Shown here: in pieces, positions 1,097 through 61,660 of the stretch
How positions within the stretch are numbered: the first letter of the stretch is position 1
Layout: each line of letters begins with the position of its first letter
From: Entrophospora sp. SA101
Lineage: Eukaryota; Glomeromycota; Glomeromycetes; Entrophosporales; Entrophosporaceae
Direction of reading: 5' to 3'
DNA length: 64,000 nt
Assembly: GCA_958430865.1 (NCBI GenBank)
Contig: CAUDNR010004156.1
Location: 102,218 to 166,217, forward strand
Notes under the pieces: generated by a model
Databases searched by the model: none
Told to the model about the DNA's origin: nothing
Seen by the model: only the letters and a program-made list of their open reading frames with translations
Program-made: the position numbers and the translations under genes

Positions 1097-4000
1097 GATA
1101 GTCCCTCGCCAACAATTATATCTGGTTCTTCCACTACCACTCCACCAACAATAGGTCTTCCGCCCGTGCCACCATGTTTACTAGTAATCAACCATTTTTT
1201 ATCAGTTTCTGTCAATTTGCTAATTTGAATTAAGGATTCTCCAGTTGCAAAATCAAAACAATCTTTAGGTCCAAATCCTACTGCCCAACGAATCTAATTA
1301 AAAATTAAAACAGATATATATATAAAGTATACTTTTTATCTCTATCTATTTATATTTGGTTTTATGATTTACCTTCATCTTTGTTCTTATATTACTAACT
1401 GCGCGGGCTGCTCCTGCACGTGTATCCATTTTTATAAATGCATGATTTTTATCATAATTAATCTAATTTAATGTCAAAAATTTTCATTTATAAATTTAAT
1501 TTTTTTTTTTAAAAAAAAAAATTATATGTATATTCATACTGTAACACTTGCGACAGAACCAAATTTTTTAAACATTTCTTGCATAACATCTTTAGGCATA
1601 TCTTCTGAAACACTACCAACATAAAGTGTCCGACTTACAACTATTTTAATTTTAACAAAACTAAAATTAGTATATAAAAAATTTTTATTTTTTATATTCA
1701 TTACCTTTGATATATTTCATTCCAACACTTTGATCTTCATATACAAGACATATGTCTTGTGGTATTGGTGTTTGTTGTGGAGATGATTGATATGTTACTG
1801 TTTGAGTAACTGGAGCAATTGGAGTAAATGTTGAAATTTGAGAAGTTGGTTGAATTGATCCTGCTATTAATGGAACACCTGAGGGAGATAGTTGACCAGG
1901 CTGCTGTTGAGGTGGATTAGGACCAGCAGCACCAGTAATATTACTCGTAGCAGAAGCATTAGTAGCAGCGGGTGGTGGTAATGAATAAACAGGTTGTGAT
2001 ACTGGTGGGACAGATGTTGGTGGACCATTATATCCAAGAGGTGTTATAAAAGGAACATTTGGTTGTTGTGAAGAATTTGAGTTCCATGGTGCAGGTTGCA
2101 TAAGATTTTGTTGAGCACCATTATTATTCCAAGGCATAGCATGAAATTGTTGTGGTGGAACATTTGTTTGTAATTGTGATGGTTGACCAATTGGTGATGT
2201 CCAAGGTTGTAATGGATTAAAAGGAAATGATGGACTAGGTTGTTGAATATTACCTGGTGAGATTTGTTGATGTTGATTTTTATGTGGTCTAGTTATTAGT
2301 TGATTAGGATCTGATGGAGTTTGTTTTGTGGTAATATCTTTTTTGTGTTGTTGATTTGATGGTGTACTATCATCATAATCAAACTCTAAAGGATTATTTG
2401 GTTCTGGCATATTTCTATCATTGCTGCCACTGCTATTATCATTAGTTGTTGTTGAATATTTGGAATTTTGAACAGTTGGTGAGTGTACATAGTTATTATT
2501 ATTTGTTGATAATGGTGTAATATTTGCAGTGTATGATGTGATAGGTAATTCTGGTTGTTGTTGCTGTAGAATTTGATGAGGCGGAGGAATTGGATGAGGA
2601 GGTTGATTGGAGTTGACAGGAACATTATTGAAAGGTGTTGGTGCATTAGGTTGCATTGATGTATTTGATATTATTGGGTTAGATGATAGAAAAGAGGGTA
2701 TGTTTAAAGTTCCCTGTGTAAGATTATTTAAAGTGGCCAATAATGCTGAGGAATCCATTGTTGTGGGATTCATATTTTTAGGATCTGTAGATGATGATGA
2801 TGGGAGCAATAATGATGATGAAGGCAATGATGATGATATGGGATTAATTACTAATAATAATAATTATTATTATTAAAAATAAATATAATAATTGAAAATT
2901 TTAGATTTTTTTCCAACTGTAAATGTTCATTATAATTTTCCTTTTTTTTTTTTAATAAAATAATATACATATTGTTCAATCCAAAGTTATAAACAATGAA
3001 AATAATAAACTAAGGTATATGATTAAAATTGTCTTTTTTCCTTTATATTTAACTGACCATTATTAGAAGAAGAAACAATTACTGATTTTGTCTCATTAAC
3101 ACTGTTAACCAATTGAGTGATCAGAGTGATTTGATTAAAATAGATGTCTTTTATCCTTTGAATAACCTCATTGTTATAAACTTCTTTGTCATACCATAGG
3201 TCAAGCACACGCTCCACTTTGTCCTGTAAAAAAGTTTTTTTTATTATATGTACGAGTTTTTAATTAATAAATATTTATTATATTCAAAAGATCACAGAGT
3301 TATCATATTCATTATTGAAATTATTGTATAATATTTAATAGGAATAATTAAATCACACATAGCATGTAAATTGTTAAATTGTTTTCCTTAATCTTCCAAA
3401 AAAATTTTTTATAAATAAAGATTTGAATTATTAATATCTGAATATACATCTACTATAATCAAGTGTTATTCTTCCTAATATTGATTAAAAATTATTTCAT
3501 CTTGATAATGATAATAATAAATTATAAACTTTCTCTGGTGTTGACGAATCACAATTATTGATGACTCTTTCTCTCTCCCAATCACTCAACATTTAAATAG
3601 ATAAAAAGGTTTTATCTATCAAAAAGCTTCCCTTGTATTGTTATTATTATTATTACTTTATCATTGTCTTGACCCCCCTGGATCTTTCTTTCTCGCTCAT
3701 AAATAACAATAATAACCAACCAATTACAATAAATAATAATAATAATGGTAATGATTTATTAAAAGACTCATACCTTATCATGTTCTGGACATTGCATTAT
3801 ATGGGTGAACATTTCCTCCAATAGTTTCTCAAATCTATCAAGATATTCTATGCCTGTCCATGATGGTGAAGATGATTGAGATGTGTTTGTGTTTGATGAG
3901 ATGTCATCAACTTTTTTTGACATTACCAATACCTTTTTTTTGAGAGCTGATTGTGATATTGAATCTAACACATATAATGCTCCCAATTTGTAATCAGATG

Positions 4001-4374
4001 GACATCTTTGAATGAATTTTTGTATACTGTATACAATATTTTTGTATTGCTATATATTATTAAAAATTAATATTTTTTTTAAAAAAAAAAAAAAGAAAAG
4101 AAAAATAAATTAATCAATGTTCTTTCCCTTAAATATATTTATGAATTGATTAATATAATTAATTAAAATTTAAAATACATCTGATTTTGATGAATGAATT
4201 TGTCAATGTTTTTCATCATTTAAATAACATATTTTTTCATACCTTTGGGGTATTAAGAGCTATTTTAGTTAGGTCTTTTATTTTTGAAGCACTAGTCCCA
4301 GGCGGTTTTCTTTCAAGTAGTTCATTTAGTTTTTTATCAAATTCAGGAAATTCTTTGGTCGTTATTTTTGTCAT
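976..4374 (-). CDS. Nrd1/Seb1-like RNA polymerase II termination factor (CID + RRM), copy A
   Basis: Seven exons close in frame: 4243-4374, 3774-4049, 3058-3223, 1705-2850, 1540-1640, 1373-1462 and 976-1293, giving 742 residues. Residues 1 to about 190 form a CTD-interacting domain: the start MTKITTKEFPEFDKKL, then KLGALYVLDSIS and HIMQCPEHDKVERVLDLW. Residues about 190-570 are a Gln/Pro/Asn/Ser-rich linker encoded by one long exon. An RRM follows, with RNP2 LYVGSV and RNP1-like NHAFIKM, then the block IRWAVGFGPKDCFDF and GGTGGRPIVGG that is typical of the fungal Nrd1/Seb1 group rather than SCAF4/8. In yeasts these nuclear proteins bind the polymerase II CTD and nascent RNA and direct termination of short transcripts. 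The third intron uses a weak GTCAGT donor but the phase fits; that junction is the least certain. No ATG lies near the start of the long exon, so it is not an independent gene. Confidence 0.87.
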
Positions 4375-4607
4375 TTTGTCTGAATGCTAAATCAAATAGG
4401 TAAGAATTTAAAACAATAAGATTTTTTTAAAATTATATATATATAATCAAAGACGAAAAAATAGTAGTTTTATTTTTTTATTTTTGTATTACAATGTCAT
4501 GCATACATTATAAAATTTTATTATTAGACAATTATTATTTTTATTATTAATAGCCCATCATTTTTTGTATCATAATTTTTTGTTGTTATGATTACTTCTT
4601 CCATATG

Positions 4608-6460
4608 AAAAGCTTCAGCTGAAGTTGATTGGGCAATTCTTTAGTTTACATAGTCTCTGTATCATTGCTAATATCAAGACCAAGTGATAACTATTGATAT
4701 TTATAGATGATATGAATATATCTTTTGGAATTTTCAACCATGCATCATGAGTCAATTGGAGAAGAAGATTAATGCGCCATGGTTTAGGTTTTTGTGCAAA
4801 TTTTTTCTTTTCAAATACAGTGCAAAACAGTTTTTTGAAGAAATCATAATGTATATGAATAACATTTTCTCTTGAATTTAAAGTAACATGCAGTGGATTC
4901 AACATTGGAACAATATTCTGAATACCTTCAAAATCACTTAATTGATAATTCATATACAATGTAATAGCCTTTCTAATAAAAAGTTGTCCTGGAAAATCAG
5001 CTATTACTGGTATTACATAAATTTTAATAAACTCTAATAATCCATCTATATTTGTTATCATTTTAATTGGCTAATAAATAATCTCTTAAGGAACAAAGGC
5101 TTTGTTGTTTTATATCAATTAATTTTATTGATTCCATAGATCTTTTTTCTTTTTTTCCTTCAATATCTGCATCATATATATGAACTGTTGAAAGTTCAAC
5201 ACAATCAAAAATTTTATCATCAAGAATTTTATTATTAATCCACTATGATTTTATATCATTGTGACTTATATCAAAAATCCCCATATATTCATTAATTAGT
5301 TAGTGTTAATTAATGAATCATCAATATTTTTAGGATTTATAATAGGTATATTATTAAATTTAGCAGGAACTGCAAGAACATTCTCAATTTTTTTAGCAAC
5401 ACATGTTGCCATATGTGTTTCTGAAGATAATGATGCCGAATCAGGTTTTCTCCACCCATGGATTGAATGATAATCATCAATATTAAAACAATGCATGTAT
5501 TGTAAATTTTTTAAAAAATATCTTTTATCATTTTTTGATGATTTTTGGCAAATTTTTTTTTTTATATAACCTTGTATTGTTTTATAGCAAGCTGAGATAC
5601 CCATGTTTGACAAAGTGTCAAGTGCCGCAGCATTTGTTCCATGTGCTTCTAGATAGAGCCCAAGATCCAGTTTAAAATTATTCACAAATTTATTTCTTAT
5701 ACTGGCTAAAAGGTAGCAATAACCTACAATAGCCTTTTTTGTTGATTCCTTATTTAAATGAGAATGATTTTTTTGAATGATATTTATTAGTTCATCAAAA
5801 AATCCTATTAATTTTGGTTCCTTAATCTACAAAAATTTGCAGGATCCAACACAATGTCATTTTGAATTTTCTTTGTTATTCATAAGAACATTTGTTAATG
5901 ATTCTATTTTATCAACAAATGATAATGTACCTATAAATAGAAAATACAATCAATACAAGTAACACAATTTAATGATAAAAAATAACATAATTACTATACC
6001 CACTTTTTTCTGATTGTTGTTGAACTGTTAAATAAACATTACTAACATCAATTAAGTTCTCAATTTCTTTGATTTGATTACTTTTTTTTCAATTGTTGAT
6101 TCTAAATTTTCAATTTTTGAAATTAATGAACCAAAGTATTCCTTTGATGGAAGAACACCATTTTCAGTAACATTTATTTTTATATTATCATTATTTTTGG
6201 AAATTTCTTCATAGATTTTATTGCTTCTTAATTTTTTCTTGTTAAACTCTACATATTTCATATAATGAATATGACAAATTTGATTTTTTTTTAAAAAAAA
6301 TAATTCATGCTTCCACAATCTGGGCTTTGTTGTGATTTATTAAGTGCAAGACCTGTCATAGTCTTAAATTTAACCTCAGTATTTTTGCAATTAATAATTA
6401 TGCAAGGACCATGATTTTCATCATTTTTTATATTAATAATGATTAATAGGAAAGAATTGT
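4608..6460 (-). pseudogene. Decayed member of a multiplied Glomeromycotina repeat family, copy A
   Basis: Read on the minus strand, several frames carry consecutive pieces of one long protein. They run from a Cys-containing N-terminal part (CHIHYMKYVEF, about 6250), through a middle part with FNIDDYHSIHG (about 5480), to YVIPVIADFPGQLFIRKAIT (about 5000) and KPKPWRINLLLQLTHDAW (about 4770). Frames shift and stops interrupt it (for example near 5840 and 5250), so it is broken. From memory, proteins with these blocks are present in very many copies in arbuscular mycorrhizal fungal genomes, usually as hypothetical proteins, and the family probably spreads as or with a transposon. I assign no enzymatic function. 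The 5' limit is unclear; open sequence to about 6760 may belong to it. Confidence 0.6.
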
Positions 6461-7350
6461 AGCTGTTTTTTAAATATTATATATAAGAATTTTTATTTGA
6501 ATTTTTGAATTTACATGAATTAATTTCCTATGAAATTTAAAATGAATTATCCTTAAAGTGTTGAATGAGATAAAGAATTACACGAATTTGTGTTACTTGG
6601 AATCTAAATTTTGGTGATTCTTTAACAAATGATTGGTGCATTTGCTTTTGATAACCATTATTGAAATAATGTTTCTGTTCATTAATACTCCCACCCTGAA
6701 AATTATTTGCATCCCGCAACTTACTGCGCCACGGCGACGAATTTTGGGAAAAAATTTCCAATCAAAAATGCAATAAAATTTGTTTTGTCATGTGATATTT
6801 CCTAGTCATTCCATAAATAGTAAAATCGGCAATAAGAATAAACATTGGGTTACCTAATATGGATGTGATCATCAACTAAAAATTCAAAAACTTTTATTTT
6901 GTTTCGATTTGTTCATTTTTATATATATACCATCAGGATGTGCAGTCAGATTAACCAAAGAAAATTTTGAGAATTCAGGCTCCAAATATCTATAATCAAT
7001 AAAAAGTTTCATGCTGGATCGTTTCCAGAGCAGTTTTCATGAGAGAGAAAAATCTTCAATGGTTAAATTGCTTCGACACTTCTTGTAATTGTTTTAACGT
7101 TAATAATGATCATGCAAAACAAATATACCAATCGTTTGTTTATTATCATGATAAAGAATCTTATAATAATTACCTATCACTATGCGATGTAAAAGACATG
7201 ATAAATATGCTCAACGTTTATGTAAGATGCTTGCACCATATTTTACACGTATATTATGGCTAAAATTTATTCAATACTCAAAATTAATTACGAATCGTTA
7301 ATCATTCGAATAAACATTATTCGAATAGAAACCCTGATTCTTTGTTGCTA
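6461..7350. other. Unassigned sequence, copy A
   Basis: This holds two short open frames (6537-6761 minus and 7039-7263 plus) with no recognisable domain, no splice partners and ordinary AT-rich composition. The first may be the eroded start of the repeat-family pseudogene next to it. I see no RNA gene. Confidence 0.4.
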
Positions 7351-7674
7351 TTACTGACCTATCGGTATAGTTTTCGGTGTCCTGTCTAGTGATAACTGTT
7401 ATAAATTTTTTAGGAACCATGCCCATTTTGCATAATAAAATTTCGAGATATATTCAAAATCAATAGTAAAATACAGATCTTTTTTTCAAATCATTTCCTC
7501 GCTTCTATTGAAAAACCACATATAATAAACAACTGTTCCATCACATTTTCATAACAGTCTTTATGTTACCTGCGCCATATCATTGTATCTAACATCCCAA
7601 TCAGTGATGGTATTTACTCCAGGGGTACTGTCGCGATAGGTTTGGATAAACTCTTTCCTAGAGCTCCCCGACAT
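7351..7674 (-). CDS. Possible small two-exon gene of unknown function, copy A
   Basis: The first exon (7570-7674) starts ATG TCG GGG and encodes 35 residues rich in polar and acidic side chains (SRKEFIQTYRDSTPG, then ITDWDVRYNDMAQ). It ends at a CAG|GTAACA donor. An acceptor ACAG at 7396 leads into 14 codons ending IPIGQ and a stop, in the same phase. Composition looks more protein-like than the surrounding DNA, which is the only support. I recognise no family. It could equally be a relic exon of a larger lost gene. Confidence 0.25.
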
Positions 7675-8088
7675 GGTTTCAGGGCAAGATTAAAAATATA
7701 TTCTGAAAACCTCAATTCAGGACAACTAGAAAAAAGACTTGTTCTACCTATAGTACCAATAAAATCATTTTATTGTTATTATTATTATTATTATTATTAT
7801 TTATTTCCTCTGATCTAATAAAATATAAAATACATATTAATTAATTAAATACATAATAAAAATACAAATATATAAATATATGAAATTATGATAAATAAAT
7901 AAGCTTATAAATTAATTATAAAACGATAAATGAATAGGTTAAATATTATTGTAATTCTTATAATTATATTTCCGCCGGTAATTCCATTAGCAATTGCATT
8001 TCAAATTTGATTACCTATCTATATCCTCTATTAAAGATAAATCATCATAGTAATAATGTCTTGATTATTATCAACAAATTATTTATAA
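7675..8088. other. Short intergenic region with ATT microsatellite and a decayed module exon, copy A
   Basis: An ATT trinucleotide run lies at about 7765-7800. At 7970-8026 (minus) there is an eroded extra copy of the repeated exon of the neighbouring modular gene: acceptor TTTAATAG, then AGGATATAGATAG and a degraded remainder with stops. It lies downstream of the gene's stop codon and is not part of the coding sequence. Confidence 0.6.
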
Positions 8089-8669
8089 TTAATCATCGCC
8101 TTCCTTTTCATCGCCATCATTACTTTTAATTTCAACGGGTAATTCTATGTCAAATTGATTATCAATATCTTCTACATAAAGACACATATAGAGGAAAACA
8201 ACATGTTATTATTATTATTATTATTATTGAATGAATAATTATTACAACTACTAGTAATAGACTATTAATTAATAAATTTACTAACCTGGGGGTTTATCAT
8301 CCTCATCAACTCGTTTTTCATCACCATCATTACTTTTGATTTCAACGGGTAATTCTATGTCAAATTGATTATCAATATCTTCTACATAAAGACACATATA
8401 TAGAAAAACAACATGTTATTGTTATTATTATTATTGAATGAAATAATTATTACAACTACTAACCTGGGGGTTTATCATCCTCATCAACTCGTTTTTCATC
8501 ACCATCATTACTTTTGATTTCAACAGGTAATTCTATGTCAAATTGATTATCAATATCTTCTACATAAAGACACATATATAGAAAAACAACATGTTATTAT
8601 TATTATTATTGAATGAAATAATTATTACACCTACTAGTAATGGACTATTAATTAATAAATTTACTAACC
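8089..8669 (-). repeat. Recent exon-intron tandem repeats inside the modular gene
   Basis: The last three exons with their introns are near-identical units spaced 178 and 210 bp apart (acceptors at about 8560, 8382 and 8172). Introns carry the same CATATATAGAAAAACAACATG and TTATTA-run sequences, so exon and intron duplicated together. The coding differences are a few substitutions and the final stop. Confidence 0.88.
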
Positions 8670-10066
8670 TGGGGGTTTATCATCCTCAACAACTCGTTTT
8701 TCATCGCCACCATTACTTTTGATTTCAACGGGTAATTCTATTGAAAATTGATCAAAAAAAAAATTTTTTTTAACTAAAATAAAAATCAATCCTTTTTTTT
8801 TTTTAATAAATAAATAATATATTTTACCTGGAGGCTCATTGTCATCAATATTATCAGGCAACTTAATTGAAAATTGATTATCAATATCCTCTAAAATAAA
8901 AAAAGTGCACATATATATAATTGTTTGTATTAAATTTACTATTTTAATTATAATTAATTAACTCATTTACCTGGTGGTTCCTCATCAACATCATTATCCT
9001 TAACTTTATCAGCCTCTATTTTTTTTTTCCAAAAAAATTTTATTAAAATTATTATCAAATTTAATTTTACATAAATAATCTTGTATCAACCAGATAACTT
9101 AATATCGTCTTCATTACCCTCGTCATTTTTAATTTCATTAGGTAATTCTATTCCAAATTGATTGTCAAGATCCTCTTAATTATAAAAAAAAAATAAAAAT
9201 GAATGTTAAATATTTTATTGAAAATTATTATATATATTCCTTCGTGATTTAATAAGTTTATATTAAATTTGCTATTTTAATTATAACTCATTGACTTGTT
9301 TACCTGGTGGTTCGTCATTACCATCATTATCCTTAACTTTATCTTTTTCAAAAAAAATTTTATTAAAATTATTAACAAATTAATTTTACATAAATAATCT
9401 TGCACCAACCTAGTAGCTTATCATCACCTTCATTGCCCTCGGCACTTTTAATTTCATTAGGTAACTCTATTCCAAATTGATTATCAAGATCCTCTTAATT
9501 ATAAAAAATAAATAAAATGTGTGTTAAATATTTTATTGAAAATTATTATATATATTCCTTCGTAATTCTCACCTTTAATTTCGTTAGGCAATTCCATTCC
9601 GAATTGATTGTCAAGATCCTCTAATTAAATCCGATAAAATAATAACATAAATAATAATATTAAAAACAAAGGAATCCTTATAAAGCAATTTATTTCCACC
9701 TGGTGGTTTATCAACTTCTTCTTTGACAACATCTTGAGTATCGTTTTGGTTGCATGATTTACACTGCCCTTTTGATGTATTATATCTATTACAAATTGCA
9801 CAAGTACCATATTCTTGTCTTCTTTCATCACTATAAATATCTTCTTTTGTTATAGATAAATTCACATCGTTTGTTGTTGTTGTTGTTGTCACTGGAGTTG
9901 TCGTTGGATTCACTACCATTGCTGGAGTTGTTAATGGACTTTGGTTTTGTAATGGTTTATCCGAGTTAATTATATTATTAAGGGAATCATTACTTTTCAA
10001 TTCTTTATGTTCATGGTCATCGTTATTGACTCCTTTCCCACTACAACAGCTTAAAGTATTACCCAT
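8089..10066 (-). CDS. Lipid-anchored modular protein built from repeated phase-1 exons, copy A
   Basis: Eleven exons (9700-10066, 9573-9620, 9410-9493, 9304-9342, 9091-9174, 8971-9015, 8828-8890, 8669-8737, 8464-8559, 8286-8381, 8089-8171) give 357 residues. Every internal intron is phase 1, so each internal exon is a self-contained cassette. The N-terminus MGNTLSCC fits N-myristoylation plus palmitoylation and suggests the plasma membrane or an endomembrane. A Thr/Asn-rich linker and a four-Cys motif (CAICNRYNTSKGQCKSC, about residues 94-110) follow. The motif resembles ones I recall near the start of Rhizophagus kinase-like proteins, but no kinase domain is present. The tail repeats an acidic module, EDIDNQFDIELPVEIKSN or close variants, usually followed by DDKPPG or DEEPPG. 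Two exons have unusual GTTGGT/GTTGAT donors, and the eighth has a shortened 5' end. Function unknown; possibly a membrane-tethered scaffold. Confidence 0.72.
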
Positions 10067-11439
10067 TGCTAATCTATGTTAATAAATAAATAAATAAATT
10101 CTTTTCGATACATATATGCTATTTATTTACAAATATATTTTACAAAATATATATTTTACAAATATATGTAACCACAATAGATATATTGTGTTTACGTGAA
10201 ATAAAAAAAATTTCCATCTTTAGAATATATATGATAATGAGTTTTAGATAAAAGAAATGTAGGGTTAGCGATTTAGCCGATTTATCAATATTGAAAAAGA
10301 GGGCTGAAAATCTTTGACCAAAACTGGACCTTACCTCATTTGTTTTTTAGTGTTGAACAAAATAATTTATTTGGGAAGACTAGACAAAATGAAATTATTA
10401 TGACGGGGCCCCGGACAATCATAGAGATTACATCTTTTAATGGTTAAAGCTCAACTCAAAAAAAACTTGAAAATTTTTAATTTTTTAAGATGATCCCTCT
10501 ATTTAAAGCAATATTGTCGGTTCGTTGAAGATCACCTTTATTATAAAATTAAAATGGGGTTTTAAGGGACTATGATCTACAATAATGTTGAACCAAAAAC
10601 AGTTAGAAATCTCACACGATCAAGTTGAATGGTATCATATGTTTATTATATAACTTTCTACAACGAAAGAATTAAACATTTATCGAACATTGCATTACAT
10701 CAACCATTCATTATTTCTCATTACCTGCGTACATGCACTATTTCATCATCATATTCTATTTATTATACTCTAAATTTTAGTAATCTATCCTTCAAATGTC
10801 AATATCATTTATTATATATATTTAAACAGAATCTGCAACGATTAATATATATTTTCCATTTATCATGCGTTAGAACTTGTATCAAGACATAAATTCATTT
10901 TTTATGTATAGAATCAACAGAAACTTTACCAAAATATGGACTTAAAATTGATAATTTTTTGTGTTTATTTATATAAACAAAAATTATATTGGTTTTACAT
11001 TATAAAAACATTATATATATATATATAGTCGTACATATATAACTCTGTCGGGAACATGATAATTCTTTTCTAAAAATGGAGGTTGTTCTTAGATGGAGTA
11101 TATAAGTTTAATAATAATTTGTTTCCAATATATCTCGTGATCAATGATTGATTAATTGCACAATTATTATTATTATCATTATCATTAGAATTTGAAGAAA
11201 TGCTGTTTTTTTTTCATGGCTTAAAATCATGTTTATTTTCAAACTTTAACAGATTCCTTTTACATCTAATATGTTCTATTAATCGAATTTGTATGGATAG
11301 TAACAACCTTTCTAACTCTTTTAAACAAATTTGCTAAAAAAAAATTGTAGATCGATTTATATGAACAATATTTTTTTTTTTTTTAAATTAAAAAATTTTC
11401 TTGGTATATATATAATATATTAAAAGAGTTTATAAAAAA
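10067..11439. other. Intergenic region between the modular gene and the oxidoreductase, copy A
   Basis: This is the shared 5' flank of two divergently transcribed genes. It contains A/T runs, an AT dinucleotide run near 11010-11028, and a more GC-balanced patch at 10270-10570 (including GACGGGGCCCCGG near 10402) that could be an old repeat. The 87-codon open frame at 10629-10892 lacks domain or splice support. I cannot define promoters. Confidence 0.45.
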
Positions 11440-13216
11440 ATGGCAAAAAAAGTTGCTATCATAGGTTCAGGTGTATCAGGACTTGGAGCAGCTTGGTTAT
11501 TAACAGAATATTCAACAGACTATAAGGTGACATTATACGAAGAGAATGATTATTTAGGAGGACATACACACACCGTTGACTATATAGTTCCATCAACCAA
11601 GAACTGCAAAGAGCCGATAATTACACCAGTGGACACTGGTTTCATTGTATTTAATCATGTGACATATCCTAATTTACTAAAATTCTTTGAATTGAAAAAA
11701 GTGGAATTTATTGACTCAAAAATGAGTTTTGCAATTTCCAGAAATCAAGGTGAATTTGAATGGTCAGGACGTACTCCAATCAGTGTATTTTGTCAAGCAA
11801 AAAATTTGTTGAGCCTAGAAATGTGGCAAACTATTTATGATATTGTTAGATTTAATTTTCATTCAACAGATTTGTTAGAGTTACCAGATGATCATCCGGA
11901 CAAAAAAATGAGTATAGGTGAATATTTGGATATTAATAAATATTCCAAGGCTTTCAGAGACAATTATCTTTTACCAATGACAGCAGCAATCTGGTCTACC
12001 CCGCCTGATAAATGTTCATTAGATTTTCCAGCATTAACGTTAATTCAATTTATGCATAATCATTGTTTGCTTCAGATTCTTCATAGAATAAAATGGTTTA
12101 CTGTGAAAAATGGAAGGTAAATTAACGTTCGTAAATAAATTAATTTATAAATCTATCTACATTAATCAACTGATTTTTTTTATAGTCACAAGTATGTTGA
12201 AGTGATAGCAGAAAAAATCCCTGATATACGTTTATCAACAAAGGTGATTCAAGTTAAACGATCAGCAACGTCAATTAAAATAATAGATGAGAAATCTAAT
12301 TGTGAAGAATATGATCATGTAATATTTGCAACACATGCAGATCAAACTTTAAAAATACTAGGCGATGAGGCAACTGATGACGAAGTTGATGTTTTGGGCG
12401 GTGTAAAATTTAATAAAAATAAAGCTGTTTTACATTGTGATTTAGAGGTAACAACAACAACATTATCATCGTAAACTAACTAACTCGATAGTCAATAACA
12501 ATAATTATTTATTTTTAGTTTATGCCAAAAAGAAGATTGGCATTTTCTTCTTGGAATTATCTTACCAAATCCACAGGAAATTCTAATATTAATGAAGTGT
12601 CATTGTATGTAAAATATGTAAATTCTAGATTTATAGTGATGGTCGATCAATTGACATTGATATTTTAATTATTTTCTTCTTCATTATTATTAGAACTTAT
12701 TCAATGAATATTTTACAGTCTATTGATGAGAAAATTTATGGGCCTGTATTGGTGACATTGAATCCATTGGATGAAATAGATCCTAGCAAAGTTCACGGTG
12801 AATGGCATTATGAACACCCACAATATTCACCTGAAACAATCAAATCCCAACAAAAACTTTACAAAATACAAAATCAACCAAACCTACATACAACTTTTGC
12901 AGGAGCATGGACTAATTATGGATTTCATGAAGATGGGTTCACATCAGGATTAAAAATTGCTAAAGAACATTTTGGTGTTGAGTGCCCATTTGAAATTATT
13001 GATGCAACCTATATTAGAGGTAAAAGAGCCAAATTGAGTTTTATTGGCAAATTACAAAAACATTCATGGATTGGATTTGAATTATTTATTTCATTTTTAT
13101 GCCATTTGATTAATTTTTTTTGTATTTTAATGGTTATGTTAATTGAAAGTTTAGAGCAATTATGTTATAATATTAGCCATGATAAACTTAATAATAATAA
13201 TATTAAGGAAGATTAA
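11440..13216 (+). CDS. FAD-dependent amine-oxidase-like oxidoreductase (COG2907 type), copy A
   Basis: Four exons (11440-12116, 12186-12447, 12519-12604, 12694-13216) join in phase to 515 residues. The N-terminus KVAIIGSGVSGLGAAWLL is a dinucleotide-binding Rossmann motif (GxGxxG at residues 9-14), with the acidic end of the second strand in TLYEENDYLGGHTHTV. Middle blocks such as PVDTGFIVFN, LPMTAAIWS and DHVIFATHADQ match the family of flavin-containing NAD/FAD-binding proteins found beside cyclopropane-fatty-acid synthase in bacteria. The C-terminal block GAWTNYGFHEDGFTSGL completes the FAD site. A hydrophobic stretch at about 467-490 may be a membrane anchor or hairpin. Substrate is unknown; a lipid-modifying role is suggested only by the family's bacterial context. 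The small third exon depends on a GTATGT donor that restores TYSMNILQ. Confidence 0.86.
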
Positions 13217-13248
13217 AAAATAAAATATCTAGTATTTAAAATATTTAT

Positions 13249-14331: not shown

Positions 14332-14540
14332 TTTATGAGCATAGCTAAAAATCCCATTTATGTCTATTTGCTTATGTCGATCAAATTAATTCATAACTAA
14401 CTAAAAAGATCGACAAATTATTATTATAAAACGACGCGACATCATGCACCTAAAGCAAGATAATTAATTCTATTAATATTAATATTTTTCTTTTCAGGGC
14501 AAATGGTTATATTTCCAGGGTAGAAACTAGAGGTTGGCAC

Positions 14541-22260: not shown

Positions 22261-22365
22261 GTATAACAAACTTTGTCCACAACAATGGTCAAAAAGAGTA
22301 CGGTTGATAATCAAGTCCCTTTAGCCATACACCTATAAAACATACTTCTTAGGCTTTGTCAACCT

Positions 22366-48923: not shown

Positions 48924-49384
48924 TATCGCGAGAAAACAATTTACAAATTATTAAAAACATAAAAATCCAAGGCAAGTTTATCAAACGTTTACTGATTTCT
49001 TTACTCATCGATTCTATGATTCCAAAATGCTAAAAGTTACAAAATTCCTTGAAATCATCATTAATACCAAATCATCCAATAATGTTGAAAGTTGTAAATA
49101 ATATTACTGGGTTCGATGAGTTACCTTTCAGCTCATGCCAGAGTCAATTATATAGAGGCCATAATAGAAATATTAATGTACTACTTGTTGTGTATTGGGA
49201 ATGAAATGCGAATAATTTCATTAATACACTGCGGCTGTTGAAGTTGGTCATAACAATAATCAAATTTATTAAATAATAATTTTTTAAATAAAAATGGAAT
49301 AAAGATTATAAAATATATATTTACATTAATTAATAAATAATTGCGCTATATAGTAATATTTTTAGAAAAATAGTTCTATAAATA

Positions 49385-51153
49385 TTATTGTTTATCAGCT
49401 GGTACCCATTTTCTAAGTCTAATAGCATGTGTATTAATGAAACCACCAGCATCAGTAGGTGTCAATCCACCATGTTCGTCCATTGAACTTTCTCTCATAT
49501 CATAAAGTTTAGATCCTACCCCATAGGCTTTGCGGCCTTCAATGATGACATTACCTTTATATAGTTTGATTTTAACCTCACCGTTGACATTACGTTGTGT
49601 GAATTCAAGTGAATGTGAAAGGAATTCACGTTCAGGTGAAAAGTAAAGGCCATTATAAAGAACTCTGCCATAAGGAATACTAAGATTTACTTCTTTAAGA
49701 TGACGAACTTGCCCATCAAGTGTAATTCCCTCAAGATCCAAATGTGCAGCACGCAATACTGTGGCCGCCGGTGATTCATAACATCCACGAGATTTCAATC
49801 CTATAAATCTTGACTCAACCATATCGACACGACCAATGCCATGACAACCAGCCAATTTGTTTAAATATGTAAATAAATCTAGCGAATTGCTTTTCTCTGT
49901 TTTGTCATTATGATTAACAACTTTAACAGGGTTCCCTTTTTCAAAATAAATAGTCTATAAATATGTATATAATTATATTGATTAATATAAATTATATATA
50001 TACATATTTAAAACGCATAAAAGAAAATATTTAAATCATCTTAAATCATCTTACAATATGTTCAGGTGTATTAGGAGCTTCCTCTGGATCAACAGTCATA
50101 CTCCACATATCTTTTGGTGGGGTGCATCCAGGGTCTTCAAGTAAACCACCTGAAAACAATATAAATATAAATGCATTTAGTTAACGTTAACAATTTGAAT
50201 ATGTTGATAAAAATTATATATATATATATATATATTCAACAAAATGATAAAGGCGAAGGACCTACTTTCATGAGAGATATGGTACAAATTACCATCTTCT
50301 GAATATGATTTTGCAGCTGTTTGAACAACAGGTATATTTTTTTTAGCTGCATAAGCAAGAAGTGCTTGACGACCAGGAAATTTTTCATAGAATTCTAAAA
50401 ACAGAACTTCCTTGTTAGTTGCTGTTGAAATAACTAAATACTTAAATTTCATCTAAAACTTTAATAATTATTATTAACCTGGCATTCTCCATGGAGCAAT
50501 AACCTTGATATCAGGGTTTAAAGCATAATATCCTAATTCAAAACGAACTTGGTCATTTCCTTTTCCTGTACATCCATGAGAAACATATTGGCAACCTTCT
50601 TGAATTGCAAGTTCAATCTAATAGCCAAACAAAAAATTAAATATCATCAATCGTGTTTAATAAAAATAAAATTAAAAAAGTAGATTGTTTACGTGACGAC
50701 GAGCAATTGGTGGACGAGCAAGTGAAGTGCCCAACAAATAGATATTCTAATAAGCAAAAAATAATTTGAGCATTAATCAATTTGCAATATATATAATGGA
50801 TTTTTTAAAAATCAAGTTGAATTTTACCTCATATACTGCATTTGCTTGAATGGCAGGGAAAATAAATTCGTCGATAAAAACACTTCTCAAATCCTAAAAA
50901 CATTCAAATCAATTAATTAATTGTCACATATATATATAGGTCCATAATAATAAATAATACAATTTCATACTTCAATAAAAACTTTGGTTGCGCCGATTTT
51001 TAAAGCTTTTTCTCTAGCTGCGTCAAAATCTTCATCTTGACCAACGTTGGCTAAATAAGCGAGAACCTCATAACCTTGTTCAATAAGCCAAACAAGAATA
51101 CATGAAGTATCCAAACCACCAGAGTATGCAAGAAGTACACGTCCTTTTGTCAT
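49385..51153 (-). CDS. ARG1: Argininosuccinate synthase, copy C
   Basis: Inverted, seven exons (first 50971-51153, last 49385-49954), identical 411-residue product with the [12 protein letters not shown] loop. Intact, including at least 500 bp of 5' flank. It faces copy B's gene tail-to-tail across the fold-back spacer. Confidence 0.95.
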
Positions 51154-51675
51154 TTTTATTATTATTTGTTATTTATTTTATTATTTATTGATTAATTAAA
51201 TTATTAGCAATTTTATTGTAAAATTATTTTGAAGATTTTATTTATACGATTTTTTTCAAGGCGAGATTATTCAATCTGATAATCATACACAGATTATCAT
51301 TATTCTTTTTTAGAATGAAAATAATTTGTGTGATCGTGATATTTGCAATCTAATCAATGATAAAACAGATTTTAAGTTAAACGTCACAATGAATGAGCAG
51401 AGGCACGTACACGAATTTATTTGTATTTTAATATCAATATTAATAATAATAAAACAAAAACAGGACAAAACGACGGATTGTTTTTCTTCTTAGGAGCAGT
51501 AAACGTCAATTAACACTAAATATTAATATTAAATAGCTTGCTTTTTTTTTAAAAAATATATATTGCAAAAAAAAAAATTTACAAATGCAGTGGCGAGTAG
51601 AAAAGATTGATTTGTTCCATAACACGATAAATTAATTTTTTTTTACCGTCTTATCAAATTTGCAACCCTTCAGTA

Positions 51676-51831
51676 TTAACCCTTTCCCAATCTTTTATAT
51701 TCTTCTAATGCTGCTCTAGAGACCTTTAATTGAGCAGAGTCAAAACTGAGAATATTCAAGTTTTTTAACGAAGGAGCTCGGCTCATTGCAATGTATATTT
51801 GTCCTTCAGAAAATATGTTCTCAACAACGCG
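51676..51831 (-). pseudogene. PIF1-like helicase C-terminal relic, copy C
   Basis: Inverted copy of the EGQIYIAMSRAP fragment, same truncation as in A and B. Confidence 0.72.
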
Positions 51832-53212
51832 GTTGGGCTTGTTTTATATATGGCACAAACGGCCAGCAATTTGATTCAATTTTTTGGCTTCCACTAATTA
51901 CATTGTCAGTGGAAGAGATGGTCTTAATGAAGCACATAGATAAAAAAATAGATAATCTGTTTTTTTTTAACGAAAGAATATTATGAATTTGATCAATTAA
52001 CATTCCTTCATTTTTATTACTCGAATTTAGAATGCATTTCTTAAACTAAAGTTTAATTCTATTTAAGAAGTTTATTTTTATAAATTAATTAAAATGTTGA
52101 AACATTTAACGGTGGCTTTAATTATTTAAATATAAGTTTATCTATCATTATATAAATCAAAGGGACGGAAGGGATGTAATTCATAGTCAGCTTAAGCTTT
52201 TTTTATTGGTCCGACATCTTTTCTTCCATCCGTTTAAAAAACTTTTTGGCAGCGCTTAACTTAACGTTAACTTTAACTACTATATCAATATATATATATT
52301 TATATATTTATACACAACGCAATCATTTTCGTAACACTTTTTTTTTTTCGAAAAATTCCTTTTTTAAACAATTCTATATGAAAAAAATCTCCTTTTTAAA
52401 GTTAAATACGTCGCACTAAATTAAATTCATCATATTCTTTCGTTAAATAGATAATAATTTCTATCATTTATCATTAATAAAATGAATAAAGGTTGAAAAA
52501 ATTTCGGTCCTTGTATAGTATGTGGTAATCAAGATATGTATTATATAAACTCTATATTATATGATTGTTAAGTATATCAATTAAGGTTGCTTGCCGAAAC
52601 TCCTCCAGAAATCAATCAGCAGGGTTATACATTAATTGTTTATTAGAGTTTCGGCAGAGTTTCGCATTTTGAGGTTTCGCCATTTTGGCATAGTTTCAAC
52701 AGGATTTTTAATCTAGTTTTGCCGTGGTTTCAGTAATTACTAAGGAGGTTTCGCCCACGACCTTAATATCAATATATTAATATATTGAGAATTTCCTCAT
52801 GTCTTTGAGCAAATCTATAATAAACAGAGTTGTTAATGGACGAATATATTTGAATTTCCCACATCTATAATAGATAAATATATTGAGAATTTCCTTGTCT
52901 TTGAGATGAAAATAAATTTGAACTTTCCCGCATCTATATATAATAAATAGATTTGCAAATTTATAGTTAACGAATGAATATATATGAATGATTGAGAAAA
53001 TAAATTTGAATTTTCTTAGTTTTTTTTTTTTGATAACAGTCCTTGGACATGTCCGGGTTATTGATTATGAATAACCTGATCACCAGTTAGCATTTTTTTG
53101 TTATTATTATTATGAAAAACTATTATCGCAAATTTTAAAAAGAGATCAGCAGTTGATTTTATCAAATTTAGAAAAAGGTATTACAACAATTAGATAATTC
53201 TTTTCTTGTGTG

Positions 53213-53728
53213 ATGGAAAATAAATTTGTAAAGATTACACCTGAACCTCTTATTCTTCAAGATATTGTAGATTTAGTAAAAGATGACAGTGCGGGTGCTA
53301 TTACTACTTTTAGTGGAACAACTCGTAATACTTTTAAAGGTATAACCAAGTAAATAAATATAAATATAATAAATAAATATATAAATAGTAAATTAATCAA
53401 TTTATTAATTAAAATTTTTTTAAAAGATAAAATAGTTGTCCAATTGGATTATGAAGCATATATTCCAATGGCAGAAAAGATTTTATTGTCAATGATTGAT
53501 GAAAGTAGATCAAAATGGAATTTAATAAAAGTGGCAATTTATCATCGTGTTAATACTGTACCTGTTGGTGAAACAAGTGTTATAATAGCTGTTTCAAGCG
53601 CTCATAGGCATGAGTCAATTCATGCAGTTGAATGGTTGATTGATCAATTGAAAGATAAAGCACCAATTTGGAAAAAAGAAATTTACAATGATGGAAGTGT
53701 TTGGAAAGATAATAAAGCAATCTCTTGA
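53213..53728 (+). CDS. Molybdopterin synthase large subunit (MoaE/MOCS2B type), copy C
   Basis: Two exons (53213-53339 and 53427-53728) on the plus strand, identical 142-residue product with the HRVNTVPVGE and PIWKKE motifs. Intact. Confidence 0.92.
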
Positions 53729-56081
53729 CATATATAAATATGTATAAATAAAAATAAAAAGATTTTGAAAATGCTTACATATATTATAATATATATAGTC
53801 AGTCAATTAATTGGTTAAATAATAAATTTTATTTAATCAACCAAATACTATATATTATATAATACCTGTTTTCTCTAGTTGTGAAAGTGCATTGATTAAA
53901 ATTCTCTATTTAATGAGAAAGTGAACATTATGCCACAAAGAAATTTCAGGGATCAAAATTGTTAATGATATTTATGGCTTTATAATGTCTCCCATCCATT
54001 TTTATTTTTAACAATTCAATAACCTCCACATAATACTATTAGGTTGTTTGCACATGTCCCAACTTTGATTGATACATTAGATACATCATAATCATCCATA
54101 AAAAAAAACATTACAAAAATTTTATAACATTACACATTCAAGTCTATAAAATTTTTTTCTTATTATAACCACCAATTTTATCACCTGACTCTTAGAGGTT
54201 ATACCCCAAAGAAAAAAATTTTGAAAAAAGTAAACTGACAGAATTAAAGCTAAAGACCTAAGCTTTGTTTATATCAGTTTACTTTTAAAAATTTGAGTTA
54301 TAAACTATTTTCATATTAATATGTAATCCACTTATTATTACTATTACCCAAAAGCAAGGATGATGATTCAAAAAACCACACTTAACTTAAAAAAATAGTA
54401 TCATAAATGAATCATGAACTAAGATTGCTATCATTTATATGTAAACAAGATTTTAATATTAATATGGAATTTTTTGTTTTATTTCTAAAAATTAATGTTA
54501 GTTTTAACCCATCAATACTCATAGCCTCTAACCTTTTATATTCTTATAAAACCGCCCTATATAGAATTTTTTAATCGAGAATTAAAAAAATATGAATTAT
54601 TAATAATTCGAATCGTTACGTTTTTTCACATTTTCAAAAAAAGGCATGATTGTTTAAATATTAACAATAAGAAATTAGAAAAAGTCTTCGAAAAAAGCTT
54701 GATTGATTCCTTTGGCAATGATGAATTATTCTAAATTGCTGCGTTATTTAGTAGCGGGGAAAGTGATTTCTTCACATTTTCAAAAAAGACATGTTGTTTA
54801 ACAACAAGGAAATTAATTCCAACTTATTGTGCGTCTTCTTTGATTCCTTTGGCAATAATGAATTAATTCTGAATTGTTTAGTGGTGGGAAAATGTTTTTT
54901 CATTTAAAAAATTTTGGCATGATGATCAGGATAATACAACGCGATCAATTTTGTGAAACATTTTTTAATTGAATTTGTTAATTAATTCGTTAACTAATAA
55001 CGTTAATAAATCATTTGTTTGTATTCAAAAAACATCTGAAAGTTAAACATGTCTGCATAGGTTGTATAGATTTTTTTGGTGAGAAAAATACAAATAATTA
55101 TTTTTGTCTTCAAGTAAAAACTTGCGAAATAATTTTCTTTAGGGTAGTAAAAAGAAAATCCTGGTGATTTTAATGTGAATTATTCTGTAATTATTGTGAC
55201 CCTTCTTCTATAGAATGGAGTCGTAAATCAACAGTGGATGTTCATTGTGGTGGAAAATAACTATCTAGCTCAAAAAAGAGTTCATGAAAATAATCAATGA
55301 AAAGGCAATCAGCAAAAACACTTCTGCAGAATCTAAAAAAGAAGTAATAAAAAATTCAATTCAATTTGTAAGTGAAGAGTTTGCCTCCTTTTTTAAAAAA
55401 AATCTTAAAGAAGGATGAACAATTCCTCGAACATTCCACATTACATCAATTGTATCTACCCTACAGTCTTTCAAAAACATTTGGAATCCTTGATTGAAAT
55501 TTTTAATACTAAGCGAGTCTGTATCATAATAGATAATCTTGTATATGCAGTGTTTTTAATACAATTTTGTTTATCATCAAATACAAAATTAATCTCTATT
55601 TGACTTTTTTTGATTGTGTCAACAACACAATTATTGGACAAACACTTTTTCCTTTACTGCATTCATATAATACTAACATAAATAAATATCTATGGTACAG
55701 ATCATCTATAATCAATTAATTGCTTATAGTAACGATTGGTCAGCCAACACTTCCAAAATAATTGGCCATCTTTAATATTAAGGGTGGGGTAAATCGGTCA
55801 CTATCAAAATTAAATAACATAATATTATTAATATTAATGTTAACCGTTTAAGTTCTTGTTAAACGGTTAACAGTGCCAACCTCTAGTTTCTACCCTGGAA
55901 ATATAACCATTTGCCCTGAAAAGAAAAATATTAATATTAATAGAATTAATTATCTTGCTTTAGGTGCATGATGTCGCGTCGTTTTATAATAATAATTTGT
56001 CGATCTTTTTAGTTAGTTATGAATTAATTTGATCGACATAAGCAAATAGACATAAATGGGATTTTTAGCTATGCTCATAAA

Positions 56082-57164
56082 ATGAACAGTTGCAGAAGAA
56101 AGCGAAGCGAAGAAAAAAATATTGTCAACGTAATTAAACATAGGAAAATCGATGTGTAGGTATTATATTCGATGGGTTATTTTAATATTTGACAACTTGA
56201 TTAAAGTGTATTTGTATTTATTTCTCAGAAACCAAGAATCATCATCACCAACTAAATCTACAATCACCAAAATTGTTGCTATAAATAAAAATGAAGACGA
56301 ATTAATGATGTTAAATGCAAGATTGATACAATGGTGTTATTTGAATGTAAATAATGAATTTGCATTTGAAAATCAAAAATTATCTGTTGAATCACAATTG
56401 TTGCAAGCCTGGAAGGTTCTATATGAAAAGAGAGTTGGGTTAATAAATAGTTTGAGAAAGTTTGAATTGGAAAAAGATCTTATTAATATAAATGAAACTT
56501 TAGAATTTCAGGTTTAAAATATATATTAAATCTTTTTATATAATAAATCATATAATTATTTCAATTGTTAATATGCATTTTTTGTTAATTGATAGAAAAA
56601 TATATTGACAAGTATTATTCAATATTTGGAAAATTTTAAACCAAATTATGTCGAGTTTGTGTCATCATTGTCTAAAACCATAACAGCGATGCCAATAATT
56701 AATATATTAACAGTAGATTTGGGTAAAATATTTTTTAACTTTATTTACTTTGGAAATTAAATTGATGAAAGAATGGCAGAGAGAGAAGATAATAATATTA
56801 TTTTCACAATATTTACATGTGATAATTTAGCTGAATTGACAAAAGAAATAGATGATTGTCTAAATGTAGCATCTGAATTATTATCACCACAAACTTCAAA
56901 TATGTCAGAATCATCATTATTGGTAATTAATATTTATACATTGATGTTTATATATATCTTGAGAATTTCAATACTTATGGGTTTTTTTTCTTTTAGGTAC
57001 AAAATATTGCTGACACTATTCAAAATCTATGTAATGATATCAAAAAAGAGTTTCAAGAATTGACAGAATGTAACAATTTATTACGGGATCTTTATGATGC
57101 AGAAATTAATGAGAGCAGTTTGAGAATACGGAAATTGAATTTACTTGAAACTGCAAATTCTTAA
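56082..57164 (+). CDS. HAUS8/augmin-like protein, copy C
   Basis: Exons 56082-56155, 56229-56511, 56596-56722, 56780-56922 and 56997-57164 encode the same 264 residues as in A and B. Intact; convergent with the oxidoreductase gene as in the other copies. Confidence 0.55.
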
Positions 57165-57196
57165 ATAAATATTTTAAATACTAGATATTTTATTTT

Positions 57197-58973
57197 TTAA
57201 TCTTCCTTAATATTATTATTATTAAGTTTATCATGGCTAATATTATAACATAATTGCTCTAAACTTTCAATTAACATAACCATTAAAATACAAAAAAAAT
57301 TAATCAAATGGCATAAAAATGAAATAAATAATTCAAATCCAATCCATGAATGTTTTTGTAATTTGCCAATAAAACTCAATTTGGCTCTTTTACCTCTAAT
57401 ATAGGTTGCATCAATAATTTCAAATGGGCACTCAACACCAAAATGTTCTTTAGCAATTTTTAATCCTGATGTGAACCCATCTTCATGAAATCCATAATTA
57501 GTCCATGCTCCTGCAAAAGTTGTATGTAGGTTTGGTTGATTTTGTATTTTGTAAAGTTTTTGTTGGGATTTGATTGTTTCAGGTGAATATTGTGGGTGTT
57601 CATAATGCCATTCACCGTGAACTTTGCTAGGATCTATTTCATCCAATGGATTCAATGTCACCAATACAGGCCCATAAATTTTCTCATCAATAGACTGTAA
57701 AATATTCATTGAATAAGTTCTAATAATAATGAAGAAGAAAATAATTAAAATATCAATGTCAATTGATCGACCATCACTATAAATCTAGAATTTACATATT
57801 TTACATACAATGACACTTCATTAATATTAGAATTTCCTGTGGATTTGGTAAGATAATTCCAAGAAGAAAATGCCAATCTTCTTTTTGGCATAAACTAAAA
57901 ATAAATAATTATTGTTATTGACTATCGAGTTAGTTAGTTTACGATGATAATGTTGTTGTTGTTACCTCTAAATCACAATGTAAAACAGCTTTATTTTTAT
58001 TAAATTTTACACCGCCCAAAACATCAACTTCGTCATCAGTTGCCTCATCGCCTAGTATTTTTAAAGTTTGATCTGCATGTGTTGCAAATATTACATGATC
58101 ATATTCTTCACAATTAGATTTCTCATCTATTATTTTAATTGACGTTGCTGATCGTTTAACTTGAATCACCTTTGTTGATAAACGTATATCAGGGATTTTT
58201 TCTGCTATCACTTCAACATACTTGTGACTATAAAAAAAATCAGTTGATTAATGTAGATAGATTTATAAATTAATTTATTTACGAACGTTAATTTACCTTC
58301 CATTTTTCACAGTAAACCATTTTATTCTATGAAGAATCTGAAGCAAACAATGATTATGCATAAATTGAATTAACGTTAATGCTGGAAAATCTAATGAACA
58401 TTTATCAGGCGGGGTAGACCAGATTGCTGCTGTCATTGGTAAAAGATAATTGTCTCTGAAAGCCTTGGAATATTTATTAATATCCAAATATTCACCTATA
58501 CTCATTTTTTTGTCCGGATGATCATCTGGTAACTCTAACAAATCTGTTGAATGAAAATTAAATCTAACAATATCATAAATAGTTTGCCACATTTCTAGGC
58601 TCAACAAATTTTTTGCTTGACAAAATACACTGATTGGAGTACGTCCTGACCATTCAAATTCACCTTGATTTCTGGAAATTGCAAAACTCATTTTTGAGTC
58701 AATAAATTCCACTTTTTTCAATTCAAAGAATTTTAGTAAATTAGGATATGTCACATGATTAAATACAATGAAACCAGTGTCCACTGGTGTAATTATCGGC
58801 TCTTTGCAGTTCTTGGTTGATGGAACTATATAGTCAACGGTGTGTGTATGTCCTCCTAAATAATCATTCTCTTCGTATAATGTCACCTTATAGTCTGTTG
58901 AATATTCTGTTAATAACCAAGCTGCTCCAAGTCCTGATACACCTGAACCTATGATAGCAACTTTTTTTGCCAT
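57197..58973 (-). CDS. FAD-dependent amine-oxidase-like oxidoreductase, copy C
   Basis: Four exons (58297-58973, 57966-58227, 57809-57894, 57197-57719), same 515-residue product with the GSGVSGLG Rossmann start and GAWTNYGFHEDG motif. Intact. Confidence 0.86.
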
Positions 58974-60346
58974 TTTTTTATAAACTCTTTTAATATATTA
59001 TATATATACCAAGAAAATTTTTTAATTTAAAAAAAAAAAAAATATTGTTCATATAAATCGATCTACAATTTTTTTTTAGCAAATTTGTTTAAAAGAGTTA
59101 GAAAGGTTGTTACTATCCATACAAATTCGATTAATAGAACATATTAGATGTAAAAGGAATCTGTTAAAGTTTGAAAATAAACATGATTTTAAGCCATGAA
59201 AAAAAAACAGCATTTCTTCAAATTCTAATGATAATGATAATAATAATAATTGTGCAATTAATCAATCATTGATCACGAGATATATTGGAAACAAATTATT
59301 ATTAAACTTATATACTCCATCTAAGAACAACCTCCATTTTTAGAAAAGAATTATCATGTTCCCGACAGAGTTATATATGTACGACTATATATATATATAT
59401 AATGTTTTTATAATGTAAAACCAATATAATTTTTGTTTATATAAATAAACACAAAAAATTATCAATTTTAAGTCCATATTTTGGTAAAGTTTCTGTTGAT
59501 TCTATACATAAAAAATGAATTTATGTCTTGATACAAGTTCTAACGCATGATAAATGGAAAATATATATTAATCGTTGCAGATTCTGTTTAAATATATATA
59601 ATAAATGATATTGACATTTGAAGGATAGATTACTAAAATTTAGAGTATAATAAATAGAATATGATGATGAAATAGTGCATGTACGCAGGTAATGAGAAAT
59701 AATGAATGGTTGATGTAATGCAATGTTCGATAAATGTTTAATTCTTTCGTTGTAGAAAGTTATATAATAAACATATGATACCATTCAACTTGATCGTGTG
59801 AGATTTCTAACTGTTTTTGGTTCAACATTATTGTAGATCATAGTCCCTTAAAACCCCATTTTAATTTTATAATAAAGGTGATCTTCAACGAACCGACAAT
59901 ATTGCTTTAAATAGAGGGATCATCTTAAAAAATTAAAAATTTTCAAGTTTTTTTTGAGTTGAGCTTTAACCATTAAAAGATGTAATCTCTATGATTGTCC
60001 GGGGCCCCGTCATAATAATTTCATTTTGTCTAGTCTTCCCAAATAAATTATTTTGTTCAACACTAAAAAACAAATGAGGTAAGGTCCAGTTTTGGTCAAA
60101 GATTTTCAGCCCTCTTTTTCAATATTGATAAATCGGCTAAATCGCTAACCCTACATTTCTTTTATCTAAAACTCATTATCATATATATTCTAAAGATGGA
60201 AATTTTTTTTATTTCACGTAAACACAATATATCTATTGTGGTTACATATATTTGTAAAATATATATTTTGTAAAATATATTTGTAAATAAATAGCATATA
60301 TGTATCGAAAAGAATTTATTTATTTATTTATTAACATAGATTAGCA

Positions 60347-61660
60347 ATGGGTAATACTTTAAGCTGTTGTAGTGGGAAAGGAGTCAATAACGATGACCAT
60401 GAACATAAAGAATTGAAAAGTAATGATTCCCTTAATAATATAATTAACTCGGATAAACCATTACAAAACCAAAGTCCATTAACAACTCCAGCAATGGTAG
60501 TGAATCCAACGACAACTCCAGTGACAACAACAACAACAACAAACGATGTGAATTTATCTATAACAAAAGAAGATATTTATAGTGATGAAAGAAGACAAGA
60601 ATATGGTACTTGTGCAATTTGTAATAGATATAATACATCAAAAGGGCAGTGTAAATCATGCAACCAAAACGATACTCAAGATGTTGTCAAAGAAGAAGTT
60701 GATAAACCACCAGGTGGAAATAAATTGCTTTATAAGGATTCCTTTGTTTTTAATATTATTATTTATGTTATTATTTTATCGGATTTAATTAGAGGATCTT
60801 GACAATCAATTCGGAATGGAATTGCCTAACGAAATTAAAGGTGAGAATTACGAAGGAATATATATAATAATTTTCAATAAAATATTTAACACACATTTTA
60901 TTTATTTTTTATAATTAAGAGGATCTTGATAATCAATTTGGAATAGAGTTACCTAATGAAATTAAAAGTGCCGAGGGCAATGAAGGTGATGATAAGCTAC
61001 TAGGTTGGTGCAAGATTATTTATGTAAAATTAATTTGTTAATAATTTTAATAAAATTTTTTTTGAAAAAGATAAAGTTAAGGATAATGATGGTAATGACG
61101 AACCACCAGGTAAACAAGTCAATGAGTTATAATTAAAATAGCAAATTTAATATAAACTTATTAAATCACGAAGGAATATATATAATAATTTTCAATAAAA
61201 TATTTAACATTCATTTTTATTTTTTTTTTATAATTAAGAGGATCTTGACAATCAATTTGGAATAGAATTACCTAATGAAATTAAAAATGACGAGGGTAAT
61301 GAAGACGATATTAAGTTATCTGGTTGATACAAGATTATTTATGTAAAATTAAATTTGATAATAATTTTAATAAAATTTTTTTGGAAAAAAAAAATAGAGG
61401 CTGATAAAGTTAAGGATAATGATGTTGATGAGGAACCACCAGGTAAATGAGTTAATTAATTATAATTAAAATAGTAAATTTAATACAAACAATTATATAT
61501 ATGTGCACTTTTTTTATTTTAGAGGATATTGATAATCAATTTTCAATTAAGTTGCCTGATAATATTGATGACAATGAGCCTCCAGGTAAAATATATTATT
61601 TATTTATTAAAAAAAAAAAAGGATTGATTTTTATTTTATTTAAAAAAAATTTTTTTTTTT
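60347..61660 (+). CDS. Modular phase-1 exon protein, copy C, 3' truncated
   Basis: Exons 1-7 are present (60347-60713, 60793-60840, 60920-61003, 61071-61109, 61239-61322, 61398-61442, 61523-61585) and match A and B. The copy then diverges in the T-rich intron before exon 8, so the last four repeat exons and the stop are missing. Reading on from exon 7 gives no plausible terminal exon. The break falls in a homopolymer-rich intron, a site equally prone to recombination and to assembly error. Confidence 0.7.

Follow-up and report, generated by a model that had tools for sequence, protein, structure and literature searches.

The 64,000-nucleotide stretch of Entrophospora sp. SA101, a mycorrhizal fungus placed in Glomeromycota, analyzed here in full (hereafter, the window) comprises positions 102218–166217 of scaffold C1650 and forms the right end of that scaffold (166,217 bp). 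It carries a gene block, with genes for argininosuccinate synthase (ASS), molybdopterin synthase large subunit (MoaE), an oxidoreductase, and a QWRF-family protein, as three copies designated A, B, and C. We infer that the copies on the scaffold very probably represent one genomic locus that was entered four times through two kinds of artefact, the stacking of unmerged contigs and an inverted amplification chimera. A preliminary description of the window had reported three near-identical copies, two direct and one inverted. This arrangement is borne out by self-BLAST of the window, in which the copies are mutually 99.94–99.995% identical across 13–19 kb, a similarity far above chance. The count of three holds within the window; the whole scaffold contains four copies.

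The coordinates of the copies and other features are listed in Table 1. In the same self-BLAST, A (2639–21935) and B (26933–46229) differ by one mismatch in 19,297 bp. C runs in the inverted direction and shows 7 mismatches in 14,597 bp with A (A, 8744–23340; C, 61669–47073) and 8 mismatches in 13,192 bp with B (B, 33038–46229; C, 61669–48478). A further 1,056 bp of C are exactly the same as in A (A, 23340–24395; C, 47277–46222). The left limit of A at 1648 had been set in the preliminary description because B begins at the equivalent position after the run of N, whereas the whole stretch 1–25493 is common to A and the upstream copy. No second copy of the tail beyond C was found on the scaffold in the scaffold self-comparison.

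The positions at which the copies end are related to the runs of N in the scaffold. Self-BLAST of the scaffold placed the fourth copy upstream of the window, where C1650:67850–94141 matches 101431–127710 except for tandem-unit differences. The right part of the scaffold contains 10 N at 67840–67849, 10 N at 97725–97734, and 1,000 N at 127711–128710, which split it into segments X1 (67850–97724), X2 (97735–127710), and X3 (128711–166217). The start of X1 (67850) and the stop of X2 (127710) are both within the shared block, exactly at runs of N, and the unshared flanks (X1, 3.6 kb; X2, 3.7 kb) are at opposite ends. The shared stretch reaches the ends of both contigs at a run of N with near-zero divergence, X1 and X2 differing mainly in tandem-repeat stretches. 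This end-to-end overlap of 26 kb has the appearance of a single locus represented by two contigs that overlap but were left unmerged. X2 begins on the left with an interspersed repeat (C1650:97735–100000) that is up to 99% identical to stretches on other contigs among the best 40 of 1,895 candidates, and repeated sequence is a usual breaking place for an assembly. X3 opens inside the block directly past the 1,000 N and carries B and C with no N between them. The round length of the run between A and B suggests that it is a scaffolding gap. Limits common to the copies and independent of the runs of N, as expected for a real duplication, were not found; the copies end at the runs of N, at the join between B and C, and in the T-rich tract of C. 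A mobile element carrying the block was also considered and is unsupported, the copies having no common limits.

Such overlaps are in line with how assemblies of this strain were made. For Claroideoglomus claroideum/luteum SA101, multiple displacement amplification (MDA) was applied to single nuclei for Illumina sequencing, and pooled nuclei were amplified for Nanopore sequencing (Montoliu-Nerin et al. 2020, PMC6987183). In workflow 2 of that study, 24 nuclei were assembled separately with SPAdes and merged with Lingon, with scaffolding by the Nanopore assembly. The number of duplicated BUSCO genes in this workflow increased with the nuclei added, for which the authors blame low-coverage errors hindering proper contig merging, while the pooled assembly 3n contained few duplicated single-copy genes (PMC6987183). 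The present case shares with these false duplications the strain designation and the doubling of single-copy genes through unmerged per-nucleus contigs, but the sections of the paper drawn on here name no locus and no inverted join (PMC6987183). The largest contigs of the published assemblies are 176.7 kb (1n), 338.4 kb (2n), 220.2 kb (3n), and 151.8 kb (Nanopore) (PMC6987183). The assembly analyzed here (101,348,593 bases in 2,123 contigs) contains C409 (242,688 bp) and C1351 (at least 269,882 bp), both exceeding the largest contig of all these assemblies but 2n, and is presumably the authors' 2n assembly or a trimmed form of it.

The join between B and C is of a different kind. The two copies meet, on opposite strands, at 8 bp, GGAAAAGG, common to both sides. 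Projected onto the upstream copy, the end of B corresponds to 90787 and the beginning of C to 93043 on the opposite strand, so that 2.3 kb (90788–93035) are skipped. On the side of C, GGAAAAGG belongs to a GGAAAA microsatellite. When inverted joins were drawn at random within 3 kb in the block (200,000 draws), matches of eight or more bases had a frequency of 7.5e-5. Among 475 MDA chimeras, 406 were inverted, the commonest class, and 337 were both inverted and separated by less than 10 kb, and complementary bases, 2–21 in number, were present at more than 70% of the junctions (Lasken and Stockwell 2007, PMC1855051); overlaps of MDA chimeras are reported to be mostly 5–8 nt (PMC4595205). The B/C junction is like these inverted phi29 chimeras in its strand flip, in its partners less than 10 kb apart, in its short complementary match of 8 bp, and in its skipped stretch, and has every feature of such a chimera that is checkable from the sequence alone. 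Unlike the reported chimeras, which are known from reads (amplified E. coli in one study, a large read set in the other), it is an assembled join (PMC1855051, PMC4595205). Palindromic reads described for MDA combined with Nanopore sequencing are likewise inverted repeats made by amplification that harm assembly, but these were reads of tardigrade mitogenomes, whereas a nuclear scaffold is concerned here (PMC13265396).

All copies could be artefactual with the B/C join stemming from the assembly software or from a chimeric Nanopore read, not from phi29 in a nucleus. The merging program operates on motif spacing (PMC6987183), and the harm done to assembly by palindromic reads is also in favor of such an origin. 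However, the 8 bp common at the junction are probably too little for an overlap merge, and the skip, the inversion, and the microhomology are traits of phi29 chimeras. Even a chimeric Nanopore read would in this case have come from MDA (PMC6987183). An origin of the join in software or in a Nanopore read is accordingly considered unlikely.

Multiplied genes are also found elsewhere in the assembly. The MCM, Brix, and proteasome families were searched, and the loci were grouped by hand on equal or near-equal scores. Members of these families are single-copy genes in most fungi. MCM gave 4 groups with 6 loci, Brix 5 groups with 8 loci, and proteasome 16 groups with 36 loci, the latter against 14 expected genes, so that some proteasome groups are split or related. 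More than one locus was found in 16 of the 25 groups. Seven of the 25, none of them MCM, are multiplied inside one contig, and three of the seven include an inverted pair. The contigs concerned are C1256 (four), C2 (three, one inverted), C1230 (three, under the Pfam cut-off), C714, C1683 (inverted), and both C1684 and C1172 (the latter inverted), whose second copies score differently and may be diverged. Among contigs met in earlier searches, which are not a random sample, C1982 contains 3,206 bp twice, 67 kb apart, with zero differences, and C834 contains an inverted pair of 2,929 bp at 99.7% identity flanking a run of 753 N.

An artefactual origin is favored because of the near-identity of the copies, the overlaps ending at runs of N, the microhomology at the inverted join, the multiplication of single-copy families elsewhere, and the published method. 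The overlapping contigs of the locus would have been assembled separately for individual amplified nuclei and left unmerged. The upstream copy, A, and B would then be such contigs placed next to one another and separated by runs of N. For the inverted C, a growing 3′ end terminating in GGAAAAGG may have been displaced during phi29 amplification and have primed anew on the other strand at a GGAAAA microsatellite close by, from which synthesis would have run back through the same block. We infer that the runs of N mark gaps left by scaffolding and that the block is not truly duplicated. The preliminary description had left a choice between a real triplication and a misassembly with inflated gene counts. 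The latter gains indirect support from the ends at runs of N, the MDA method, and the family duplication, while the former is unsupported.

Several points weigh against this explanation, among them the differing scores and the sub-threshold trio mentioned above and the copy differences described below. The reported distances of MDA chimeras range from 0 to >5,000 nt with a peak at 250–300 nt (PMC4595205), and the 2.3-kb skip is within this range but far from the peak. The size and contig number of the analyzed assembly (101.3 Mb, 2,123) disagree with those printed for 2n (130.41 Mb, 4,632 contigs), and 101 Mb is smaller than the genome-size estimate of 119 Mb, so that size alone is no sign of inflation (PMC6987183). 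All located copies of the 7.9-kb core of the block and of MoaE are on scaffold C1650, which real local amplification would give as well.

Indeed, the block might be truly multi-copy in SA101 through a recent local segmental duplication with one copy inverted. The clustering on one scaffold, the position of B and C in one N-free stretch, and the natural appearance of the small differences in B and C argue for such an event, and the near-identity across 13–19 kb would fit a very recent one. Microhomology of the B/C type occurs in real fold-back events, too. However, the copies end at runs of N or chimera-like joins and not at common limits, and other parts of the assembly show the same multiplication of families that are normally single-copy. 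Furthermore, an older partial copy of the 3′ part of the block on the same scaffold (C1650:45067–47683; 2.6 kb at 98.4% identity, with 11 mismatches and 30 gap positions) is visibly diverged, unlike the block copies. False duplication was described by the authors for this kind of assembly (PMC6987183). We regard a real duplication as very improbable.

The differences between the copies should be considered separately. The four transitions specific to C in the ASS exon are within 105 bp, and every other copy is without them. A formula puts the probability that four random changes in C cluster this tightly at about 1.3e-6, and none of 200,000 draws did so. Of the 567 transitions possible in the exon, 193 are silent, giving p = 0.013 for four of four. 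Such a patch resembles natural variation more than an error of copying. It is possible that the patch comes from reads of an unassembled close paralogue or from a real difference between nuclei. Conversion of the patch from a 78% identical paralogue (C1755/C1357) is rejected at the two of the four sites that its alignment covers, at which the changes in C lower the match to the paralogue from 224 to 222 of 289. This ASS-like stretch is present on both C1755 and C1357, likewise contigs met in earlier searches and not randomly sampled, which share 2,404 bp at 99.96% identity.

In B, the missing 552 bp are flanked in A by two copies of TGGTGCA, and this in-frame deletion also looks more natural than copying error. 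Two additional tandem units, of about 203 and 205 bp, distinguish X2 from X1, a poor fit to an artefact. An artefactual origin of the copies thus leaves the four silent changes in C and the 552-bp deletion in B unexplained. Diverged tandem repeats of approximately 260–330 bp, 86–92% identical, were also observed at 8105–8752 and 8923–9567, and their unit number differs between the upstream copy and A.

These natural-looking differences, the four silent transitions within 105 bp, the 552-bp deletion, and the tandem units distinguishing X1 and X2, would suit stacked contigs from genetically different nuclei, in which case the stacking is artefactual and the copies are true alternative genotypes. 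However, A and B differ at one of 19,297 sites outside the deletion, and C is the same as the upstream copy at every site between the ASS patch and the terminal T-rich tract, whereas distinct genotypes should differ throughout. Alternative genotypes are therefore extremely improbable. A variant in which the stacking is artefactual, yet the copy differences reflect true variation among the nuclei of a single fungus, perhaps as short gene-conversion tracts in a background that is identical elsewhere, is quite unlikely.

The read-depth comparison proposed in the preliminary description is a weak test of the artefactual origin because MDA depth is uneven. Because the Nanopore DNA was amplified as well, long reads could span the inverted junction even with no such junction in the genome (PMC6987183).

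Pfam matches in the block are NAD_binding_8, Arginosuc_syn_C, MoaE, QWRF, and CID, while Rfam (gathering score) and ARAGORN gave nothing in the window. The QWRF proteins, which we take to be augmin-related, correspond to the gene called augmin-like in the preliminary description. In exact searches, the three exons of the oxidoreductase region, QWRF, MoaE, and the first ASS exon were each found four times on the scaffold, three of them in the window. The second ASS exon has three exact matches on the scaffold in addition to the version in C with the four changes. The CID exon and two neighboring open reading frames (ORFs) are present three times (upstream copy, A, and B), C ending before them; for the PQ-rich and RD-repeat ORFs the number is exactly two each (upstream copy and A). 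The ASS protein cluster at 100% identity consists of three member sequences on one contig, which fits a repeated, inflated annotation of one protein. A long RD/RE-repeat ORF on the minus strand (24353–25360) adjoins the run of 1,000 N and has no Pfam match. A short ORF (21766–21972), inside which B stops, contains HGGGGIMVWGRFSGKG, presumably resembling a remnant of a Tc1/mariner transposase.

Table 1. Features of the block copies in the window (window coordinates)
Feature	Position	Strand	Remarks
Copy A	1..25493	+	Window part of scaffold segment X2 (C1650:97735–127710); left limit in the preliminary description, 1648; self-BLAST of window and scaffold
Run of N	25494..26493		Exactly 1,000 N, between A and B
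Copy B, direct	26494..46229	+	Starts within the block just past the run of N; stops at the equivalent of A 21935
Copy C, inverted	46222..61669	-	7 mismatches in 15,448 bp with the upstream copy
B/C junction	46222..46229		8 bp GGAAAAGG; strand flips
T-rich tract at the end of C	61639..61669		Holds 3 of the 7 differences of C from the upstream copy
Tail up to the scaffold end	61670..64000		First 261 bp identical to contig C986
Tandem unit, ~200 bp (about 203)	700..1100		Two units in A, one in the upstream copy
Tandem unit, 205 bp	23136..23544		Two units in A, one each in the upstream copy and C
Deletion join in B (TGGTGCA)	26933..26939	+	552 bp of A (2087–2638) missing; frame of the PQ-rich ORF kept; alignment and translation
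C-only transitions in the ASS exon	49478, 49487, 49577, 49583	-	Four, all third-position and silent
Oxidoreductase exon	11416..12120	+	NAD_binding_8, E 7.6e-13; repeated at 35710 (+) and 58296 (-)
QWRF-family exon	13899..14279	-	Pfam QWRF, E 8e-07; repeated in B and C
MoaE exon	16688..17059	-	Four places genome-wide, all on scaffold C1650
ASS exons	19961..21025	+	Arginosuc_syn_C, E 3.4e-56, in the second exon; repeated in B and C

The repeat is present in the record but most probably absent from the organism as drawn. The copy ends at runs of N, the short inverted join, and single-copy families multiplied inside one contig are warning signs that can be recognized without reads. Pending read data, ASS, MoaE, the oxidoreductase, and the QWRF gene should each be counted as a single gene on this scaffold. 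In the public scaffold, one locus appears to be counted as many as four times, gene counts derived from it are probably too high, and studies of gene families and duplication based on this assembly could meet false expansions.

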